A stretch of DNA of 43,605 nt from a virus, in IMG/VR virus record IMGVR_UViG_3300041809_002110, positions 1 to 43,605 of that record. One strand, 5' to 3'. The position numbers were made by a program, and so were the translations under genes. Below, one piece after another: positions 6,499 through 43,605 of the stretch. The first letter of the stretch is position 1. Each line of letters starts with the position of its first letter. The notes beneath the pieces are model-generated. The model did not search any database, had not been told where the DNA came from, and worked only from the letters and a program-made list of their open reading frames with translations.

Positions 6499-6618
6499 CT
6501 GAGGTTAGAGGTGAGAGGCAATAGGTGAGAGGCAATAGGTGAGAGGTGAGAGGCGATAGGTCACGCGCTCGGGGCTCTCCTATTACCTATTGCCTATTCC
6601 CTCTTGCCTCTCGCCTCT
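6499..6618. repeat. Heptad-arm element 1
   Basis: Left arm 6499-6562 is built of 7-nt units (TTAGAGG, TGAGAGG, CAATAGG). The core ends in CGGGGCTCTCCTAT, and the right arm 6580-6618 consists of complementary units (ACCTATT, GCCTATT, GCCTCTC). The arms would pair as a long hairpin. It fills the gap between the genes starting at 6495 and ending at 6619. Confidence 0.9.
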
Positions 6619-7623
6619 TTACGATCCCGCGTCGTCGTAGCAGATCACCCCATTGATCGTCCAGGTGCGGGTCTCGCTATCATAATGGGCATCGACCGTG
6701 GCGCCGGCGGCGATCGACTGCCCGACATCCACGATGTAGGTCCCGATCGTGACGCGGATCGAAGTGGCCGGCAGTTGGCTGTTGATGGTGATGTCGCACC
6801 AGACGGTCGTGTCGCCACCGCTGTCCTGAACGAGGGTCTGGACCAATTCGCCCTGATAGTCCACCTTGTTGCTGGGCCGGTCGACGACCTCCCAGACCTG
6901 AAATTGCACGCCGCCGCTGATCGCCGCCGTCGCCGTGGCCCCGGTTCCATCTCCGCCGGAGATCGTCACCGTAGGCGCGCTGGTAAAGCCGCTTCCGCCG
7001 GCAGTCAGCGTCAAGCCCGTCACGACGCCCCCGGAAACGGTCGCCGTTGCCGTGGCCCCGATGCCCCCGCCGCCGGAAATCGTCACCGTGGGCTCGGACG
7101 TGTAGCCGCTCCCGCCGGCGGTCAGCAGCAGCGAACTGACTGTGACGCTCTCACTGCTCCCGTTGAGCGCGAATCCGACCATCATCCCCGTGTTTTGGGC
7201 CTGCACCCAGTCGCCGAACATCGAGCAGAGCTGCCCGCTGGGATCGATGAGGATCACGCTGTATGCCGGGTCGGTCTTCGGGAACCCGGCCAGGGTGGCG
7301 CCGGCGGGCCAAATCTGGCTGGTCGGCTGGGCGAGCTGCAAAGTGGAGGAGCTGATGCTGCCGGGATTTCCGAAGGCCCCGCGGATGTTTACCGAATTGC
7401 CGCCCAGGATCACCGGCATCATCGGGTCGCCAATGGTCCCGTTCGTGCCGACGATGGATCCGGCCAGGAACCCCAGGTACAGCCCCGGCCCTCCGTCGGG
7501 GATCGTCTGGTCGGTCCCGAGCTGGAACCACGATACGGTCTGGTCGGCGGGCACGACCTGGGCGGGGCGGACGAGGTACCCGCAATCCCGCTCGTCCGCG
7601 TCATAGTGGTCCAGATCGGCCAT
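6619..7623 (-). CDS. Tail fibre-like protein with Gly-rich beta repeats
   Basis: The product is 334 residues. Two tandem beta repeats of about 38 residues ([31 protein letters not shown], then [19 protein letters not shown]) occupy roughly residues 165-240. This [14 protein letters not shown] repeat is common in phage and bacterial surface fibres. The rest is beta-rich with no enzyme motif. The ATG at 7623 lies 8 nt after the stop of the upstream tail-hub candidate, so they share a transcript. A structural role near the tail tip is the best reading. Confidence 0.7.
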
Positions 7624-17289: not shown

Positions 17290-17430
17290 TGGAGGTGGCG
17301 AGTGGCAATCGGAGAGAGGCAATAGGCAATAGGCAATAGGAGAGCCGTGGGGTCCGAACCAGCGGCCTATGACCTATGACCTATGACCTTTCACCTCTTA
17401 CCTATTGCCTCTGACCCATTGCCTCCGTAG
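17290..17430. repeat. Heptad-arm element 5 (inverted orientation)
   Basis: CGAGTGG units, then CAATAGG units, then AGGAGAGCCGTGGGGTCCG and AACCAGCGGCCTATG, which is the reverse orientation of the core found in most copies. A right arm of ACCTATG and CCTATTG units follows. It encodes the last codons of the upstream gene (Met-Gly-Gln-Arg-Gln-stop at 17402). Confidence 0.9.
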
Positions 17431-30746: not shown

Positions 30747-30850
30747 GGCGGAGAGGGAATAGGTGATAGGCAATAGGTCATAGGCCGCTGGTTCGGCCTC
30801 CGCGGCTCTCCTATCGCCTATCGCCTATTGCCTCTCTCCTGTGGCCAATT
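30747..30850. repeat. Heptad-arm element 7
   Basis: Left arm of GAATAGG, TGATAGG, CAATAGG and TCATAGG units, core AGGCCGCTGGTTCGGCCTCC through GGCTCTCCTAT, right arm of CGCCTAT and TGCCTCT units. It abuts the start at 30746 and runs into the last codons of the gene ending at 30811, whose C-terminus (RREAIGDRR) is repeat-encoded. Confidence 0.9.
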
Positions 30851-31029
30851 GCCTCTCCTCTCAGCTTCTTGCTCAGCGTGGCCGCGTCGAACCAATCGAA
30901 ACTCAGCTCGGGATTCGATGCGAACCGCCCGAGCGTCCGGAGCAGCTCCGCGCGGCTCGCGTCGTCGTAAAAAAAGACGTACCGCTCGGCCCCCTTCGCC
31001 AGCACCAGGATGTTCGTGTCGTCGGGCAT
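30811..31029 (-). CDS. Hypothetical protein with repeat-encoded C-terminus
   Basis: The product is 72 residues. The first ~55 form a compact sequence (NILVLAKGAERYVFFYDDA, LLRTLGRFASNPELSF). The last ~16 (RGEAIGHRREAIGDRR) are translated from heptad units of element 7, twice giving the word REAIG-x-R. Probably the ancestral stop was lost or replaced when the element arrived. No family is recognised. The start is in a weak context next to element 8. Confidence 0.55.
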   Translation of the reverse strand: MPDDTNILVLAKGAERYVFFYDDASRAELLRTLGRFASNPELSFDWFDAATLSKKLRGEAIGHRREAIGDRR

Positions 31030-31136
31030 GGTGGGGGCAGAGGCAATAGGTCATAGGTAATAGGTTATAGGTCGGAGGCGGCTGGTTCGCGCCGCGCGGC
31101 GCTCCTATCGCCTATTGCCTATCACCTATTGCCTCT
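31030..31136. repeat. Heptad-arm element 8
   Basis: CAATAGG, TCATAGG, TAATAGG and TTATAGG units, core AGGCGGCTGGTTCGCGCCGC, right arm of CGCCTAT and TGCCTAT units. It fills the space between a start codon (31029) and the upstream stop (31137). Confidence 0.9.
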
Positions 31137-33451: not shown

Positions 33452-33583
33452 GGGTGGCGGGTGGCGAGTGGTTAGTGGTTAGTGGCGGGGAGGCGGGCAG
33501 GTGATAGGCAATAGGTCATAGGTCATAGGCCGCTGCGTCGGCCTCCGCGGCTCTCCTATCTCCTATTGCCTATTGCCTCTTCC
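33452..33583. repeat. Heptad-arm element 10
   Basis: CGAGTGG and TTAGTGG units beside the start codon (33451), then TGATAGG, CAATAGG and TCATAGG units, core AGGCCGCTGCGTCGGCCTCC with GGCTCTCCTAT, right arm of CTCCTAT and TGCCTAT units. Confidence 0.9.
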
Positions 33584-33619
33584 CGCGGGTTGTGGTGCGT
33601 TTCACGCACCCTACAAACT
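33582..33619. repeat. GTGCG hairpin repeat, copy between two heptad elements
   Basis: CCCGCGGGTTGTGGTGCG continues TTTCACGCACC and CTACAAACT. It is the best-preserved copy, wedged exactly between elements 10 and 11. CCCGCGGG is itself an 8-bp palindrome. Confidence 0.85.
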
Positions 33620-33621
33620 GA

Positions 33622-33715
33622 GGTCATAGGTCACAGGTCATAGGCCGCCGGTTGGGGCCGCGCGGCTCTCCTATCCCCTATTGCCTATTGCCTCTCCCCT
33701 ATTGCCTCTCCGCTC
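33622..33715. repeat. Heptad-arm element 11
   Basis: TCATAGG and TCACAGG units, core AGGCCGCCGGTTGGGGCCGC with GGCTCTCCTAT, right arm of CCCCTAT and TGCCTAT units. It overlaps the end of the secreted protease gene, which takes its last Glu-Arg-Gln-stop from the element. Confidence 0.9.
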
Positions 33716-35264
33716 CGGGCGGTGAATCAAACGAATAATCTGGCGCCGCGGACACATTCACGATCACCCACAGATCGCTGTCTTGGGTGAAAAACTTGTC
33801 TTCGAGGTAGGCGTAGCCGCCCACGCCCCAAGTGCTCGACCAGCTATTGAGGATCTTCCAGAAGCACCGGCCGGGGTAGTTGGGCGAAGTGAACGTCCCG
33901 CCGCAGACGGTGATCTCGTGGTTTACGCCGTTGCCGGCGCCGGCGGCGTAGGTGATGAAGCCCTGGCTGTCCGGGTTGAACCCGTTGCCGACCGAGATCC
34001 CGCAGGTGATCGGCAGGCCCCGGGCGATCGCCGCGGCGATGTAGCCGAGGTTCTGGCTCGTGTCGTTGGGCGGCCCGTAGACGCCCAAGAGCGTGTGCTG
34101 GGCCGCGTCGCCCTGATAGCCGGCCGGCAGGTTGCCCCAGCGGGGCATCAAGGACAGGGGTATGGTGCCGGTTTGCCCGAACAGTTGAATCACGTCGCCG
34201 GCCATGCCGCCGTTGCTGCCATCGGTGGCCGCGGCGGCGTACCAGGGCGAAAACGGGTAGAAGTTGGCCGGCCCGAAGGCCCGGTAGACTGCCGCGTTAA
34301 ACAGGCTGGTGGGGGCCTCGGCATAGCAGATCCCGTACTGGCCCTGGTCGGGGACCACCTGAAACTGGGTCGAGAGGTCCACCTGGTAGGGATACTCGCC
34401 CGGGTTCAAGGGTGCTAGCACGGCCTGCATCGATTGGATCGGCTTGCCGTGAATGGCGAAGCGGAGGCCCGCAGGGGCCGGACGGAGGCCCAGGTACCGT
34501 TTCTGGCCCTTGATGGTCACGAAACCCTTGCCCTGCGGCAGGTAGCCCTTCAGGAGCGTCAGAACGTCCGTTTCGGTGGCCGTCGGCGAGATGGTCTGGG
34601 TGCCGAGGATCTTGACGACGCCGGCCGTGCGCGAATAGGCGATCACCGCGGGCTGTTTTGAAGCGGGGGCCAGGGCGACCCAGGCATCGAGCGCCGGCGG
34701 GTGCGAGACGGTGAGCATGGCCGGATCAATTACGAGCCAGGAGCCGTTCTGAGAGCCCAGGAAGGCGGCGATCGCGTGGGAGTGGGAGACCTCGGCCAAG
34801 GATTGCGAGAGGGCGAACTCCGAGCCGATACCGACGACCGAGAGCGTCGAGTCGATCGAGGCTGGCGCCGGACCGGGGGTCGGATTCGGCGTCGGGCCGG
34901 GGGCCACCGTGACCGTGACGGTTGCTGTGGCGGAGCCGCCGCGTGCGGTGCATGAAGAGCAGCCGCCCGAACAGCATCCACGGCCGCGGGTGGCCACCAG
35001 CGTGTAGGTGCAGGTTTCCGTGGGACTCACGATCGTGTAGCCCGTCGTGACTCCCTCGTCCTGGCCGGTGATGGTGACCCGATCGGCATTCGCTGTCGAC
35101 CAGGCCAGCCGCGTAGACCCGCCCGGTAAGATTTGTTGGGGCGTGGCGGTGAAACTCAGCACCCTGGGGGAGAAAAAGAATTGCTCTTGCGCGCACAACG
35201 CGGAGCCGGAAAGAATGGCCGCGAGACAAACGAGGCTAATTGCGAGTCGTTTTGGCTGCAACAT
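33699..35264 (-). CDS. Secreted papain-like (C1) cysteine protease with Ig-like domain
   Basis: The product is 521 residues. Signal peptide MLQPKRLAISLVCLAAILSG with likely cleavage after ALCA. Residues about 33-120 are an Ig-like beta domain (LSFTATPQQILPGGSTRLAWSTANADRV..YTLVATR..ATVTVTV) interrupted by a Cys-rich insert (CCSGGCSSC), then a Pro linker. The protease part has QGQYGICYAEA (Gln307/309, nucleophile Cys313), NGVNHEITVCGG (His449) and ILNSWSSTWGVGGY (Asn473), the C1 catalytic set. It is unusual for a phage. Likely role: release from, or attack on, a protein-rich envelope. The ending comes from repeat element 11. Confidence 0.75.
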   Translation of the reverse strand: MLQPKRLAISLVCLAAILSGSALCAQEQFFFSPRVLSFTATPQQILPGGSTRLAWSTANADRVTITGQDEGVTTGYTIVSPTETCTYTLVATRGRGCCSGGCSSCTARGGSATATVTVTVAPGPTPNPTPGPAPASIDSTLSVVGIGSEFALSQSLAEVSHSHAIAAFLGSQNGSWLVIDPAMLTVSHPPALDAWVALAPASKQPAVIAYSRTAGVVKILGTQTISPTATETDVLTLLKGYLPQGKGFVTIKGQKRYLGLRPAPAGLRFAIHGKPIQSMQAVLAPLNPGEYPYQVDLSTQFQVVPDQGQYGICYAEAPTSLFNAAVYRAFGPANFYPFSPWYAAAATDGSNGGMAGDVIQLFGQTGTIPLSLMPRWGNLPAGYQGDAAQHTLLGVYGPPNDTSQNLGYIAAAIARGLPITCGISVGNGFNPDSQGFITYAAGAGNGVNHEITVCGGTFTSPNYPGRCFWKILNSWSSTWGVGGYAYLEDKFFTQDSDLWVIVNVSAAPDYSFDSPPGAERQ

Positions 35265-35623
35265 GAGACGGAAGGGGGTTAGAGTGGGTGTTGCGGGGGC
35301 GATCGAGAGACGCCCCACGGAAGAAAGCGGGACACAGCGGCGTACACAAAGATCGCATCATGCGAATGATCCCTGCTAGCATCCTGCGTTGGGCCGGTGT
35401 ACACCTGAGCGGCTCATACGCCGCTGGTCCCGGAGCTGCTGCGAAAAACCCTAACCGCCGCGAAGGGATAAGTCAAGCAAAATCCGGGCGCCGTAAGTGG
35501 TTAGGGGTTAGAGGTTAGCGGCGAAAAGGCAGCACGGAAGGGGCAATAGGCAATAGGGGATAGGAGAGCCGGAAGGCCCGAACCAGCGGCCTATGACCTA
35601 TGACCTATTGCCTCTTCCCTCTT
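35265..35623. other. Intergenic gap with heptad-arm element 12
   Basis: 35265-35495 holds no gene I can support; on the minus strand there is a TTGACT hexamer near 35471-35476 but only a poor -10. The repeat element occupies 35500-35623 (separate entry). Short plus-strand ORFs here lack Shine-Dalgarno and recognisable content. Confidence 0.45.
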
Positions 35624-36624: not shown

Positions 36625-37434
36625 TTGAATATCGCTTTCCAGGCTCTCGCAATCGTCGTCCTGATTCTTCCGGGAGCCATCTTTTACAGGTTCAGGTCTG
36701 CATTTGGCCACTTTCGAGCCCAACGTCAACTGACGGACGAGATTTTGCATAGTCTCGTGGCAGCAGCAGTCGCTCATCTCGTTTGGGTGCCCCTCAGCAA
36801 TATTGTGAGTTCGTGGCTCGACCTTGGATTGTGGGTCGATCTAAGATCCGTCTGTACCTTGGTCGCCGGACGGTTGGACGAAGGCTCAAGTTCGGTGACT
36901 GCGCTGAATTCGCTCAGTGACCATCCGGTGGCGGTTTTCGTTTATTTTTCCACGTTGTTCGGGGCGTGCGCTCTATGCGGTTACGGCCTCAGAAGATTGC
37001 TTCAGTGGATTCACGGGCCTATCAAAGAGCTTCTGCTTTTCGCCGGACCCGACGAATTTCAGGCGCGTCGGTTTGCTCACTGGTCCCGCGTGTTGTCCGT
37101 TGACATTGCCACGAATCAAGTAACATGCACCACCGTAGTAGCCTCAGCCCTCCTCGGGTCCAAATCGTTCTTGTACGCTGGGCTCTTAAAAAGCGTGCTT
37201 TGGAATGAATCATCCGGGGAACCGGAGTGGTTGGAGCTATCTTCAACCATGCGCCGCGAGACAGGGGCGGCCGACGAACCGCCCGAAGGTGAAGACGAGC
37301 ACTGGTATTCCATCCAAGGTGAATCGTTCATGTTGAGGTATTCCAAAGTGGATACGCTCAATCTGATCTATTCGGCGCTGGGCGACCAACCGGCCGTAGA
37401 AGAGCCGCCACTCGATTCTGGTGCCGCGTCTTAA
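36625..37434 (+). CDS. DUF6338-like membrane protein
   Basis: The product is 269 residues. Three hydrophobic helices (about 3-20, 43-62, 100-120), then a cytoplasmic-type domain whose later part (SKSFLYAGLLKSVLWNESSGEPEWLELSS) matches my memory of DUF6338 (membrane N-terminus plus a beta domain with a G-x-L-x-S or E pattern). Function of the family is unknown. In mobile elements such genes are candidates for phage exclusion or defence, which is inference. The start is TTG at 36625 with a weak Shine-Dalgarno. It is on the plus strand, with atypical composition, and abuts the broken ASCH gene. Confidence 0.65.
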   Translation: MNIAFQALAIVVLILPGAIFYRFRSAFGHFRAQRQLTDEILHSLVAAAVAHLVWVPLSNIVSSWLDLGLWVDLRSVCTLVAGRLDEGSSSVTALNSLSDHPVAVFVYFSTLFGACALCGYGLRRLLQWIHGPIKELLLFAGPDEFQARRFAHWSRVLSVDIATNQVTCTTVVASALLGSKSFLYAGLLKSVLWNESSGEPEWLELSSTMRRETGAADEPPEGEDEHWYSIQGESFMLRYSKVDTLNLIYSALGDQPAVEEPPLDSGAAS

Positions 37435-37657: not shown

Positions 37658-37902
37658 ACGCCCACCTCCCACGGCGCGGGACAGGCGGCCCGCGCGGCGT
37701 CGTACTCGCGCTTGTAGGCCTGATACTGCGCCTCGGTCATGCCAGCAAACTGCAATCGCATGGCACAGGCAACCGTGCTGCGGGGCGGGCGCCGCACCGT
37801 CCGGGCCGCGGCCCGAAACTCCGCCAGGTGCTGCTTTCGCCGCAGCCGCGCCTCGAGCGCCCGGAGATCGTCCGCCGTTGCGTTACTGGCTGCCTGGCTC
37901 AT
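37654..37902 (-). CDS. Small early protein
   Basis: The product is 82 residues, mostly helical and basic (DDLRALEARLRRKQHLAEFR, AQYQAYKREYDAARAACPAPWE). ATG at 37902 overlaps the initiator stop (ATGA) and its own stop overlaps the ASCH start in the same way, so three genes are translationally linked. No family is recognised. By place it could be a helicase-loader-like or replication accessory, but its size argues against lambda P. Confidence 0.65.
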   Translation of the reverse strand: MSQAASNATADDLRALEARLRRKQHLAEFRAAARTVRRPPRSTVACAMRLQFAGMTEAQYQAYKREYDAARAACPAPWEVGV

Positions 37903-39062
37903 ACGGCGGCCTCCCGGGTCGTCTCCGCAGGTGCACGCCACGGCTGGGCGCAGGCATCCCACGCGATCCGCCGGAACTGGCGCTTGAGCGTCGCCAAAAC
38001 CTGTTGCGGATCGGTGCCTTCCGGGCAGACCTCAGCGAACTCCGCGGCCGTGTTCCGAAGGATCCCGATCAGGCAGGCGACCCGCGTCTTGCGGACCACC
38101 TCGCGGGCCGTTTTGCGGGCGGCGCCGTGGATCCATTCGCGGTGCTCGGCGCCCAGGAAGACCACCGCCGCGCCCAGAATCGCCAAAAACAGCCGATCGT
38201 CGCGCGGCACCGTCCAGGGCGCCGGCACACGCCCCGCCGGCCAGGTGATCCTCACGGCGCCGTCGTCGCAAAATTCCTCGACGGCGCCCAGCAGCAGGTC
38301 CTTCACGACCCGCGCGGCGATCGAGACGGCGCGCAGTGCTTCCCTGCGCTGTGTGTTGGGTAGGGTGTTGTAGTTGAATTTAGAACTACTACTACTACAA
38401 ACAAAACAAACATCAGGCGCGCGCGCCGGCGCGCCCGCGCGTTGGGAGCCCATGCCATTCAGCGAAGGGCCCTCGGGGGTGTCCCATGGATGGGACGGGG
38501 TGTCCCATGGATGGGACGGGGTGTCCCATGGATGGGACGGGGTGTCCGGCTGGTGGGACACGCTTTGGGCCGGGGTGGGCTGGTCTTGGGTGGGCTGGGG
38601 TTCGTGGTCGGCACTGGGTCGGCCGACCGAAAGAAAATGGAGCGATTCGGGCAACGGCATCCCGCAGACCGCGTAGATTCCAGCCCAGTCAATCTGGTAG
38701 GTGTTGCCGACTGGCTGTCCGCACCGCTCCGTGGCGATAACGCGCAGGATGCCAGCTCCCCGCGCGTCAGCAATGATTCGCAAAATCGTGGATCTCGAGC
38801 CCCGAGGGCCGATCGGGTCGAGCGTAAACGCCAGCCAGCCCTGGTCGGGAGCCCAGGGCTCGCCGAGCCCCCGTCGCGTATTGAAGTATACGGCGAACAT
38901 CAACCGCACGAATTTATCCTCGTGGGCACAGGTGGCGCTCATGCGGCTCACAACATACACGAACTGCCGCCAGCGGGCCGCCTCGGCCGCCTCGCTGTCC
39001 TGCCACGCCCCCGCCATCGTCTGCTGCTGCTTTTGGTTCTGGTTTCGGTTCCGTCCGCTCAT
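37899..39062 (-). CDS. Replication initiator with internal origin (lambda O-like layout)
   Basis: The product is 387 residues. The N-terminal part (about 20-130) looks like a winged helix (RQFVYVVSRM, SRSTILRIIADARGAGILRV, GNTYQIDW). Residues about 168-194 are a repeated linker (SHQPDTP then three SHPWDTP), encoded by iterons. A Ser-rich piece is encoded by the AT-rich segment. The helical C-terminus (from about 240: ALRAVSIAARVVKDLLLG and others) is the probable partner-binding part. DNA-binding head, ori-encoding linker, protein-binding tail is the lambda O plan. The ATG at 39062 has AGGAG 8 nt upstream. Confidence 0.7.
   Translation of the reverse strand: MSGRNRNQNQKQQQTMAGAWQDSEAAEAARWRQFVYVVSRMSATCAHEDKFVRLMFAVYFNTRRGLGEPWAPDQGWLAFTLDPIGPRGSRSTILRIIADARGAGILRVIATERCGQPVGNTYQIDWAGIYAVCGMPLPESLHFLSVGRPSADHEPQPTQDQPTPAQSVSHQPDTPSHPWDTPSHPWDTPSHPWDTPEGPSLNGMGSQRAGAPARAPDVCFVCSSSSSKFNYNTLPNTQRREALRAVSIAARVVKDLLLGAVEEFCDDGAVRITWPAGRVPAPWTVPRDDRLFLAILGAAVVFLGAEHREWIHGAARKTAREVVRKTRVACLIGILRNTAAEFAEVCPEGTDPQQVLATLKRQFRRIAWDACAQPWRAPAETTREAAV
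38366..38559. other. Candidate replication origin: four iterons plus AT-rich element
   Basis: Three perfect copies of GTCCCATGGATGGGAC start at 38481, 38502 and 38523, exactly 21 bp apart; each is a 7-bp dyad around GG. A degenerate fourth (GTCC...GTGGGAC) starts at 38544, in phase. On the coding-strand 3' side follow an alternating CG tract (38415-38442) and a stretch about 74% A+T (38371-38412) in otherwise GC-rich DNA, suited to unwinding. Lambda ori likewise has four dyad iterons then an AT-rich element inside gene O. Confidence 0.75.
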
Positions 39063-39506: not shown

Positions 39507-40298
39507 TTACGGCTTGCCGAAATAGATCGGCACGGCCTTCGCGTTGTCCTGCGGATCGTCCTCGCCCAGGGCCGCAGACAGCCGTGAGTGGATGTCGGCC
39601 TGGTGCTGCTCCTGGAGCTGGTCCAATGCCCCAGGCTCCGGCAGCAGCAGGATCCGCTGTGCCTGGCCGTCGTATTCCAACAGCAGGCGGACAGGATACT
39701 CCTCTCGCTCGCCAGTGTTCGTGTAGATCGGCACGCGGACGACGATCTCCTCGGGCAGGTCCGCCGCCCCTTGCACCTCGGCCTCGATCGTGCGGCCAAG
39801 CGACTCGCGCGACTTGCCCACGTCACCGGCGCCGCCGATGATGGCCTGAAAACTCAGTCGCCGGAAAGCGGTAATGAGGACCTCGTTGGCCTTCAAATAG
39901 AACCGCAAGAGGCGGATCAATTCCTTCTGGGTGAACGCCACCGGAGCGTCCTGATCCTCGATTTGGCGGAGCTTGTTCCAGGGGGCGCTCCAACTCAGCG
40001 TAAACACCACCAGGTCCCGCCGGTCCGAATCATCGAGGATAAGGGTCACCGCCCCGCCGCCGTGCCAGATCACCGGATCGGCCTGGCAGGTCCGGGCGTA
40101 GGTGATCAGGTCCTCAAGGGATTGCACGAAGTGCTTCCGACAGGGCGGCGGAACGGAAAAAAGCTCATGCTTGCCGGATTGGACCAGCAGCTTACTGCGC
40201 GGGTCCGGGGTGTCGATGAAGGCGACGGCCTTCGTCAGTTGCTCGGCCTCGCGGACGGGGGCCTGGATCGCCTTAATGGCTCCTTCGGTCAATTCCAC
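39507..40298 (-). CDS. Early protein, possibly DUF2303-like
   Basis: The product is 263 residues. The middle has FVQSLEDLITYARTCQADPV followed by TLILDDSDRRDLVVFTLSWSAPWNKL, then FTQKELIRLLRFYLKA. A beta hairpin with Trp-x-x-Trp-type residues ahead of helices recalls the DUF2303 (YfdQ) family of phages, a weak match. It lies in the replication block. The start is GTG at 40298 with GAGGAGA about 8 nt upstream. The C-terminus is acidic with Gln-rich helix (LDQLQEQHQADIHSRLSAAL). Confidence 0.55.
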   Translation of the reverse strand: MELTEGAIKAIQAPVREAEQLTKAVAFIDTPDPRSKLLVQSGKHELFSVPPPCRKHFVQSLEDLITYARTCQADPVIWHGGGAVTLILDDSDRRDLVVFTLSWSAPWNKLRQIEDQDAPVAFTQKELIRLLRFYLKANEVLITAFRRLSFQAIIGGAGDVGKSRESLGRTIEAEVQGAADLPEEIVVRVPIYTNTGEREEYPVRLLLEYDGQAQRILLLPEPGALDQLQEQHQADIHSRLSAALGEDDPQDNAKAVPIYFGKP

Positions 40299-40350: not shown

Positions 40351-40758
40351 CTAGACCGGCTTGACGTCGCGGACCTCGCCGCGATCGACCTTGCCCGTAT
40401 CCGGGTTGAGGTCGTCGAAGGTGGTCTGTTCGAAGTTCTCCGGCGATTCGCTGCTGAAGTAGGGCCGGCCCTTCGGATCGAGCCCCAGCGAATAGGGCCG
40501 CGTGCGGCGGTCCGGAATGACGGCATTCAGGTTGAAGGTGGCCGTGAGCCCCTTGGTCCGCAGGGTGTCCTCGAACTCGGGATCCTCCGCGGCTACGGGC
40601 GTGAGTTGCAGCTCCATGACCACTTTCCGGGGCCGATCCTCCAGCGGCCGGTCGGTGCAATCCGCCACGAACTCCTCGACCAGCCGGCGAAAGGCTCGCA
40701 TTGCCTTCCCGCCGTCAAGGTCCTTCAAATTCTGCAAGTCGAACAGTAGTAGTCCCAT
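40351..40758 (-). CDS. Early protein of unknown function
   Basis: The product is 135 residues: helical N-terminus (LLFDLQNLKDLDGGKAMRAF, RRLVEEFVADC), beta-rich centre (RKVVMELQLTPVAAED, GLTATFNLNAVIPDRRT) and a C-terminal acidic segment. No family is recognised. The layout of a helix plus beta strands near a replication initiator is compatible with a recombination or DNA-binding accessory. The ATG at 40758 has GGAG 7 nt upstream. Confidence 0.65.
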   Translation of the reverse strand: MGLLLFDLQNLKDLDGGKAMRAFRRLVEEFVADCTDRPLEDRPRKVVMELQLTPVAAEDPEFEDTLRTKGLTATFNLNAVIPDRRTRPYSLGLDPKGRPYFSSESPENFEQTTFDDLNPDTGKVDRGEVRDVKPV

Positions 40759-41156: not shown

Positions 41157-41248
41157 GGTAAGAGGTAATAGGCAATAGGTCATAGGTCGAAGCCCGCTGC
41201 TTCGGGCCGCGAGGCTCTGCTATTGCCTATCCCCTATTGCCTCTCACC
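41157..41248. repeat. Heptad-arm element 14
   Basis: TAATAGG, CAATAGG and TCATAGG units, core CGAAGCCCGCTGCTTCGGGC with GGCTCTGCTAT, right arm of TGCCTAT and CCCCTAT units. Confidence 0.9.
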
Positions 41249-41677: not shown

Positions 41678-42664
41678 TCACCCGCCGAAGACATCCGGCA
41701 GGTGCATCCGCTCGACCGCGGCCCGGAGATCGGCGGACGGATTGATATAGTGCCTGGAGGTGTCGATCGAGGCATGATCGAGCATCGCCTGGATCGCCCA
41801 GGGCGAGGCGCCCGAGGCGGCCAGCCGCGTGCCGCAGGCCCGCTTGAGGTCGTGCAGCCGGATATGCTGCACGATCCCCCCGGCGCGCTGGATCGCGTGC
41901 CACTGGCGATACCACGTGCCCTCGCTCGCCGGCCAGGCGAAGATCAGCCGCTCCGGGCCGCGGATCCGCAGCAGGTGTTTTACGGCCGTCTCGCACAGCG
42001 GCTTTTGGCGGTCGCCGCCCGTCTTGTCGAACTCGGCCGGCAGCCAGATCGCCGGGCCGCCCCAGTCGATCCAGGCCCACTCGAGCGCCAGCAGGGCCTC
42101 GCGCCGAAACCCCGTCGTAACGGCCGTCACAACCAGCGCCCGCCACCAGTCGGCCGGCGCCGCACCGGGCAGCAGCGGCCGATCGGCCGCCTCGGCCCCG
42201 CGGTAGATCCGATCGAGGACGTCGTCGGGCACGTCGCGCGGCAGCCGCCGCGGCTGGCGCAGCGGCTTGACCCACGGCACGGCGGCCAGCAGCCCCAACG
42301 CGTCGCGGTTCCGCGGGCCCGGCGGACCCGCCTTGTAGATCAGCGAGAGGATCTGGCGGCGGTGCTTGTTGACCGTCGCGGGCTTGAGCGGACTGCCCTT
42401 TTTCCGTTTGGCCTCCGGCTCGCAGCCGGGCGGAAACTGCTGGACGGTGCGGGCGGCCGAGGCCGGCGGGTGCGCCAGGGAATCGAGGAAGCGGGCCAGG
42501 ATCGACGGCGTGATGGACGCCAGCGGCGGGTCGCCCACCAGCCGTCGCCAGTGTTTCAACGTCGCCGAGTACTCCTTGAGCGTCCGCGGGTCGGCGCCCA
42601 GCAGGAACGTCGGCCGGTAGTGCTGATCGTAGTAGTCTTGGAGGCCGAGATCCGCTGCGCCCAT
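41678..42664 (-). CDS. int: Tyrosine-family integrase
   Basis: The product is 328 residues. The N-terminal SAM-like core-binding part is about residues 20-120. The catalytic domain has Arg in TTGFRREALLALEW (about 187), a Lys in FDKTGGDRQKPL, the box RLHDLKRACGTRLA (His271), H297 in MLDHASIDTSRHY and nucleophile Tyr306. In the H-x-x-R box the usual Arg is Lys (HDLK), followed by Arg. It inserts phage DNA at the host att site, likely tRNA-Cys. An ATG at 42664 with GGGGAGGGAG upstream was chosen over a TTG at 42682. Confidence 0.9.
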   Translation of the reverse strand: MGAADLGLQDYYDQHYRPTFLLGADPRTLKEYSATLKHWRRLVGDPPLASITPSILARFLDSLAHPPASAARTVQQFPPGCEPEAKRKKGSPLKPATVNKHRRQILSLIYKAGPPGPRNRDALGLLAAVPWVKPLRQPRRLPRDVPDDVLDRIYRGAEAADRPLLPGAAPADWWRALVVTAVTTGFRREALLALEWAWIDWGGPAIWLPAEFDKTGGDRQKPLCETAVKHLLRIRGPERLIFAWPASEGTWYRQWHAIQRAGGIVQHIRLHDLKRACGTRLAASGASPWAIQAMLDHASIDTSRHYINPSADLRAAVERMHLPDVFGG

Positions 42665-42712
42665 AAGCGACTCCCTCCCCAATGGTAGCTCCTAAACGGG
42701 GCCTCCGTGCCG

Positions 42713-43512: not shown

Positions 43513-43605
43513 ACCGCGACCGCGACCCCGACCGCGACCGCGACCCCGACCCCGACCGCGACCCCGACCGCGACCCCGACCCCGACCACGACCGCGACCA
43601 CGACC
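43513..43605. repeat. Degenerate hexanucleotide array, right end
   Basis: CCNCGA units continue to the last base and match the array at the left end (1-85). The first gene of the minus-strand integrase operon starts 38 nt inside it. The two arrays probably form one on the real molecule. Confidence 0.9.

Follow-up and report, generated by a model that had tools for sequence, protein, structure and literature searches.

Phage record and gene context

Does a gene of an uncultivated phage hold, within its own codons, the origin from which the phage replicates? The question is raised by a short array of 21-bp repeats in a minus-strand gene of virus record IMGVR_UViG_3300041809_002110, for which a lambda-O-like origin with a new 21-bp dyad iteron had been proposed (the original prediction). 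The window, meaning the whole stretch of DNA analysed, is this record at its full length of 43,605 bases, with a GC content of 65.5%. Genes for terminase, head protease, major head protein and integrase are present, which assigns the record to a tailed and, judging from the integrase, probably temperate phage. The gene and its neighbours are as follows (G008, G019 and G020 are records of other phages, described below).

37899..39062, minus strand: putative replication initiator gene, an open reading frame of 387 codons, with homologues in G008 and G019/G020
Probable parts of this gene: N-terminal winged helix at about codons 20-140; unstructured linker with the candidate origin at about 141-240; helical C-terminal part
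39507..40298, minus strand: early neighbour gene, weak match to PHROG_210 / DUF2303, kept near the initiator in G008
40351..40758, minus strand: early neighbour gene of 135 aa, kept near the initiator in G008 (34% identity, E 2e-18)
41678..42682, minus strand: tyrosine integrase; it has homologues in G008, G019 and G020, each lying upstream of the initiator homologue

The array-bearing gene is downstream of the integrase, on the same strand and at a distance of about 2.6 kb. Sequence searches against Pfam, PHROG, NCBIfam and the PDB returned no match naming it, so its assignment as an initiator is indirect and draws on homologues, predicted fold, synteny and related phages. Neither a helicase loader nor a helicase is recognisable in the window, the neighbouring genes being devoid of such domains, and no RNA family of Rfam was detected in it. 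Cumulative GC skew has a peak, not a minimum, near 37-38 kb; its amplitude is small, a single strand carries most genes, and the skew was judged too weak to use.

Iteron array and adjoining sequence

Within the linker codons, the repeats and the sequence 3' of them on the coding strand are arranged as follows.

38476..38559, minus strand: iteron array, four 21-bp units, GTCCCATCCATGGGAC + ACCCC on the coding strand; three are identical and the 5'-most is degenerate
38544..38559: degenerate unit GTCCGGCTGGTGGGAC, 5'-most on the coding strand, palindromic at 10/16 positions
38523..38538: exact copy of the 16-bp dyad
38502..38517: exact copy of the 16-bp dyad
38481..38496: exact copy of the 16-bp dyad, 3'-most on the coding strand, palindromic at 14/16 positions
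38415..38442: GC block, 93% GC, alternating CG, between the iterons and the A+T patch; absent from the homologues
38368..38414, minus strand: A+T-rich patch, candidate DNA-unwinding element, its coding strand including TAGTAGTAGTAG

The three perfect copies and one degenerate copy in exact 21-bp phase that had been predicted are borne out by motif positions (GTCCCATGGATGGGAC occurs exactly at 38481, 38502 and 38523) and by Tandem Repeats Finder (38476-38547, period 21, 3.4 copies, 100% matches). On the coding (minus) strand the array reads as 4x GTCCC(N7)GGAC + ACCCC, each unit of 21 bp consisting of a 16-bp dyad followed by ACCCC. The description as a 21-bp dyad iteron holds for the length of the unit but has to be amended for its symmetry, since the dyad covers 16 bp and is palindromic at 14 of them. 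The dyad does not recur elsewhere in the window, even at two or fewer mismatches; in 100 shuffles, under the same tolerance, it was found 0.11 times on average and never 3 times. The exact iteron was found across all viral contigs in four places, each time as a single copy in an unrelated setting and never in an array, and these matches are attributed to chance.

As had also been predicted, the coding strand continues 3' of the array with alternating CG (38415-38442, 93% GC) and then with a stretch of about 42 bp, GATGTTTGTTTTGTTTGTAGTAGTAGTAGTTCTAAATTC, that is 74% A+T. This stretch (38374-38415, 26% GC) falls in the region of the most A+T-rich 42-mers of the window, the next such region having 36% GC. 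When the 45-mers of the record are ranked by nearest-neighbour stability, none is less stable than 38370-38414 (z -4.3, rank 1 of 43,561), the ranks here and below being computed over records that are possibly incomplete.

The units encode the repeated peptide SHPWDTP in the minus-strand gene 37899-39062, as originally noted, and the repeats could be a coding minisatellite, i.e. a proline-rich linker whose seven-codon units were duplicated by slippage and have no function as DNA. The three exact units do not differ at any base, as a recent duplication would leave them, and most of the linker is without secondary structure in a model of the full-length protein (poor, pLDDT 38.6). In-frame 21-bp arrays also arise for protein reasons: an array of this pitch in G007, considered as a further case, was rejected as it encodes a coiled coil in the head protease, and it serves as a negative control, so the 21-bp pitch alone was not counted as evidence. 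Against a minisatellite stands the choice of codons. Equally palindromic codings are only 2.5% and 1.3% of synonymous choices, without correction for register choice, the former value being that for PSHPWD weighted by codon usage. In 300 synonymous-codon shuffles of the gene, neither the 21-bp self-match nor the A+T minimum was ever reproduced, which indicates that the amino acids force neither of them. An A+T content as high as that of the 140 nt lying 3' of the iterons arose in only 3 of 1000 synonymous shuffles.

Homologues of the array-bearing gene

Direct relatives of the gene were not found with peptide patterns in viral and genome contigs or with tblastn in phages and plasmids, nor were any reached through the DUF2303-like neighbour. 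Relatives of the terminase were found in 17 records, one of which, G008 (IMGVR_UViG_3300048558_000060), carries the gene (E 7.5e-6, residues 91-139, 43% identity). The same record also contains the DUF2303-like neighbour (E 6e-35), the 135-aa neighbour and the integrase (E 6e-20), and this common gene neighbourhood supports the homology of the initiator genes. Profile scans added G019 (IMGVR_UViG_3300038418_000390) and G020 (3300018025_000008), where the integrase precedes the initiator homologue by about 1.4 kb on the same strand; the initiator genes of these two are identical, and only two independent homologues, G008 and G019/G020, are therefore counted. The homologues are 24-28% identical to the window protein and 34% identical to each other. 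Among 287 genomes labelled Patescibacteria, one weak and broken match (E 0.001, two stops) was obtained and not used. A contig filed under a Patescibacteria genome (JAJDCE010000052.1) has a terminase belonging to this phage group (38% identity); it is probably a phage contig in the wrong bin, or else a clue to a host.

A search of homologous genes for the same iteron arrangement had been suggested, and it was positive in both cases: each independent homologue has three to four units at a pitch of 21 bp in the same place of the linker, with unrelated DNA letters and unrelated peptides. Homologues lacking iterons but keeping the length of the linker had been named as evidence against an origin; the opposite was seen, since the arrays are present and linker length is not conserved. 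In G008 the array reads TGTCGCCGGTGCGCAGCCCCC / TGTCGCCGGTGCGCTGGGGGG / TGTCGCCGGTGCGCAGCCCCC at 21 bp plus a fourth fragment, with units of the type TGTCGCCGGTGCGC(A/T) followed by a C or G run. In G019/G020 there are four units, TGCTTCCACAGAGCATCCCCC and TGCTCTCCCAGAGCACCCCCA alternating at 21 bp, of the type TGCTCTCCCAGAGCA+CCCCCA. The repeat peptides are SHPWDTP in the window, VAGAQPP/VAGALGG in G008 and ASTEHPP/ALPEHPH in G019/G020. Common to all three genes is a unit made of about 16 bp with more or less dyad symmetry and of four to six consecutive C or G. The symmetry is 14/16 in three units of the window, 12/15 in two units (half) of G019, and weak, 6/16, in G008. In the middle unit of G008 a G run replaces the C run, so that PP becomes GG in the protein; this one case suggests that the run in the DNA matters and not the prolines.

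An A+T element beside the iterons is evident in G008, where the patch CATCTATTAAAGGAATATCCTTCTTGTTTCC starts at most 14 nt from the array and ranks 2 of 30,052 45-mers in a 30-kb record, but it is not clear in G019/G020, where a weak A+T signal adjoins the array and the linker is most A+T-rich on the 5' side. The patch is likewise not exceptional in G019 or in three other phages treated below (G011, G013 and G014).

Arrays that agree in place and pitch while their letters and peptides are unrelated, and an adjoining patch that is a stability minimum in two records (rank 1 in the window, rank 2 in G008), speak against slippage in a linker, and a coding minisatellite is considered unlikely. The expectation of an origin logic carried by an unrelated iteron sequence is supported by the same arrays, which occupy one place with different DNA.

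In-gene arrays in other phages of the terminase group

Phages that share the terminase and do not have this gene were examined for in-gene arrays. In G014, a gene (L048:4879-6054) for a PHROG 'replication initiation' protein (E 3e-12) has in its linker codons 25-bp dyads, TGTGGGGCCA-ACAGG-TGGCCCCACA, with 10-bp arms and a spacing of 33/66 bp. In G011, a gene (L045:14831-15649) for a PHROG 'replisome organizer' (E 1e-7) has two clusters of GATAACAAAC repeats among its codons. A gene of G013 (L047:8077-9042) has repeats in 10-bp phase, TGCGGGGCGG / CCGCCCCGCA, which face opposite ways on either side of an A+T-richer stretch; it possibly represents a symmetric in-gene origin. This last gene has no family match, and only those of G014 and G011 are named by the libraries. 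Taken together, the three genes support the view that, in this phage group, an array in the linker codons is the mark of an initiator.

Predicted fold of the protein

The N-domain of the G008 homologue, modelled from a three-row alignment, is predicted to be a winged helix (pLDDT 84.6) with helices at 27-39, 52-58 and 67-79 and strands at 83-89 and 95-102. Its top match in the PDB is the N-domain of DnaD (2v79; E 7e-4), with no sequence match to it. The TM-score is only about 0.5, so the likeness is read as a shared type of fold and not as membership of a family; Pfam and PHROG models of DnaD_N and of replisome organizers gave no match for the window gene. Winged helices are a common fold. The model thus supports a role of the N-domain in DNA binding and is no proof of an initiator.

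The protein could instead be a transcription regulator, or a defence or self-immunity protein, that binds the repeats in its own gene as an operator or aba-like element. The winged helix by itself is also a repressor fold, and many of the PDB matches after DnaD are regulators. A precedent is found in the BstA prophage genes, which have a DNA-based self-immunity element within their locus (PMC8585504). However, PADLOC had no match in the window, and the repeats lie in the middle of the gene, about 500 bp from its start, beside the easiest-melting DNA of the record. The PHROG-annotated initiators of related phages share the arrangement, and the window has no other recognisable replication initiator. 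A regulator or defence protein is thus an improbable reading, more so than a minisatellite. DnaA-dependent unwinding, in which host DnaA would load at TAGTAGTAGTAG beside the GC block (the DnaA-trio design) with the iterons only assisting, has in its favour four TAG triplets on the coding strand at the A+T patch with the GC block adjoining, but is extremely improbable: the gene has no DnaA box at 0 or 1 mismatch and is on that ground not placed among DnaA-trio systems, and in the homologues the TAG repeats are missing, no run of three or more such triplets occurring in their genes.

Comparison with known origins

The O protein of phage lambda has an iteron-binding N-terminal part, a linker encoded by the origin, and a C-terminal part. 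The annotated lambda record has four dyad iterons in the middle of gene O, spaced at 20/24/23 bp, with an A+T element directly 3', and the window resembles it in having four dyad iterons mid-gene and an A+T element 3' on the coding strand. The spacing is exactly 21 bp in the window, and the iterons are unrelated save for a short TCCC/GGGA half-site. Lambda has gene P, whereas the window has no recognisable gene P and has the additional GC block; an adjacent loader (P) or DnaB-type helicase, as in the lambda O/P module, was not found among the neighbours in the window. A profile comparison of lambda O with the window protein by hhalign gave no alignment, and there was no O-like match in PHROG or Pfam. 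The term lambda-O-like is consequently kept for the design and dropped for membership of the O family by sequence. In lambda, dimers of O bind the iterons and the neighbouring A+T region of 40 bp opens (PMC5043065, PMC7466680).

In phage SPP1, oriL lies in gene 38, which encodes the replisome organizer gp38, and consists of direct repeats and an A+T unwinding element within the gene of the origin-binding protein (PMC6316719); for lambda and SPP1 alike, this anatomy has been established by experiment. The window is similar by description in having repeats and an A+T element inside a gene. Unlike the window, in which no second copy of the iterons occurs elsewhere, SPP1 possesses a further origin, oriR, and encodes a loader and a helicase of its own. 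In phage P22 an origin is annotated, by similarity, inside the O-like gene 18, with repeats and an A+T stretch of its own in a layout like that of the window; the repeats differ, and gp18, O-like by annotation, is encoded next to a DnaB-type helicase. Iteron plasmids have iterons in helical phase beside an A+T element (PMC5043065). The window shares this with plasmids of the RepE/RepA/pi type, but their iterons are mostly direct repeats that bind monomers, whereas those of the window are dyads and the gene has no Rep Pfam domain; no plasmid relative of the gene was found by tblastn.

Proposed origin inside the putative initiator gene

Three features of in-gene (lambda-type) origins are present in the window: repeated units inside an open reading frame, an adjacent A+T element and dyad symmetry of the iterons. 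The best reading is that the locus represents a further case of this known type, like lambda ori and SPP1 oriL. The region is very probably the origin of theta replication of the phage, located in the linker-coding part of its own initiator gene. That the gene encodes a replication initiator is indicated by the winged-helix N-domain with DnaD as its top match, by the synteny of the early region and by the repeat-bearing initiators of related phages. The initiator would be produced from the early region, and its N-terminal winged helix would bind the dyad iterons, whose spacing of 21 bp would align the bound molecules along one face of the DNA in a stacked nucleoprotein complex. Under strain and supercoiling the neighbouring A+T patch would then melt, and the C-terminal part would recruit the host helicase, either directly or via a loader of the host or the phage. 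DNA binding, melting, helicase recruitment and origin activity are all presumed functions.

A broader proposal is finely balanced, with doubt slightly prevailing. Initiator and origin may form one inseparable gene in which the letters were replaced wholesale and the layout was held (21-bp units of a dyad half and a C/G run, then an A+T patch), and unrelated initiator families in the terminase-defined group may have converged on, or kept, origins in their own linker codons. The locus provides a candidate origin and initiator, from sequence alone, for a phage group in which no cultured relative was found here. In the set of homologues the letters of the origin change completely while pitch and place are fixed, which offers a natural test of co-change between an initiator and the sites in its own gene. 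For origins of uncultivated phages in general, the rule would be to inspect the linker codons of a winged-helix early gene.

Other features of the record

The minus-strand gene at 33699-35318 has a papain-type C1 peptidase domain, and its N-terminal part weakly matches a virion structural protein family. The gene at 36625-37434 (plus strand) lies on the strand opposite to its neighbours, has a weak match to DUF6338, and is a candidate for an added cargo gene. Short arrays of 7-bp units (AGGCAAT, AGGTCAT, CCTATTG, AGGGATT, AGTGGCG) are scattered along the record, for example at 6501-6619, 17300-17425, 30754-31134, 33499-33711 and 41157-41187; many appear to be intergenic and to stand in opposed pairs. 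Both ends of the record (1-86 and 43513-43605) consist of GC-rich tandem repeats of hexamer type (CACGACCGCGAC...; ACCGCGACCCCG..., 15 copies). Probably the record breaks off within a repeat, or else a single array bridges the ends of a circular genome.
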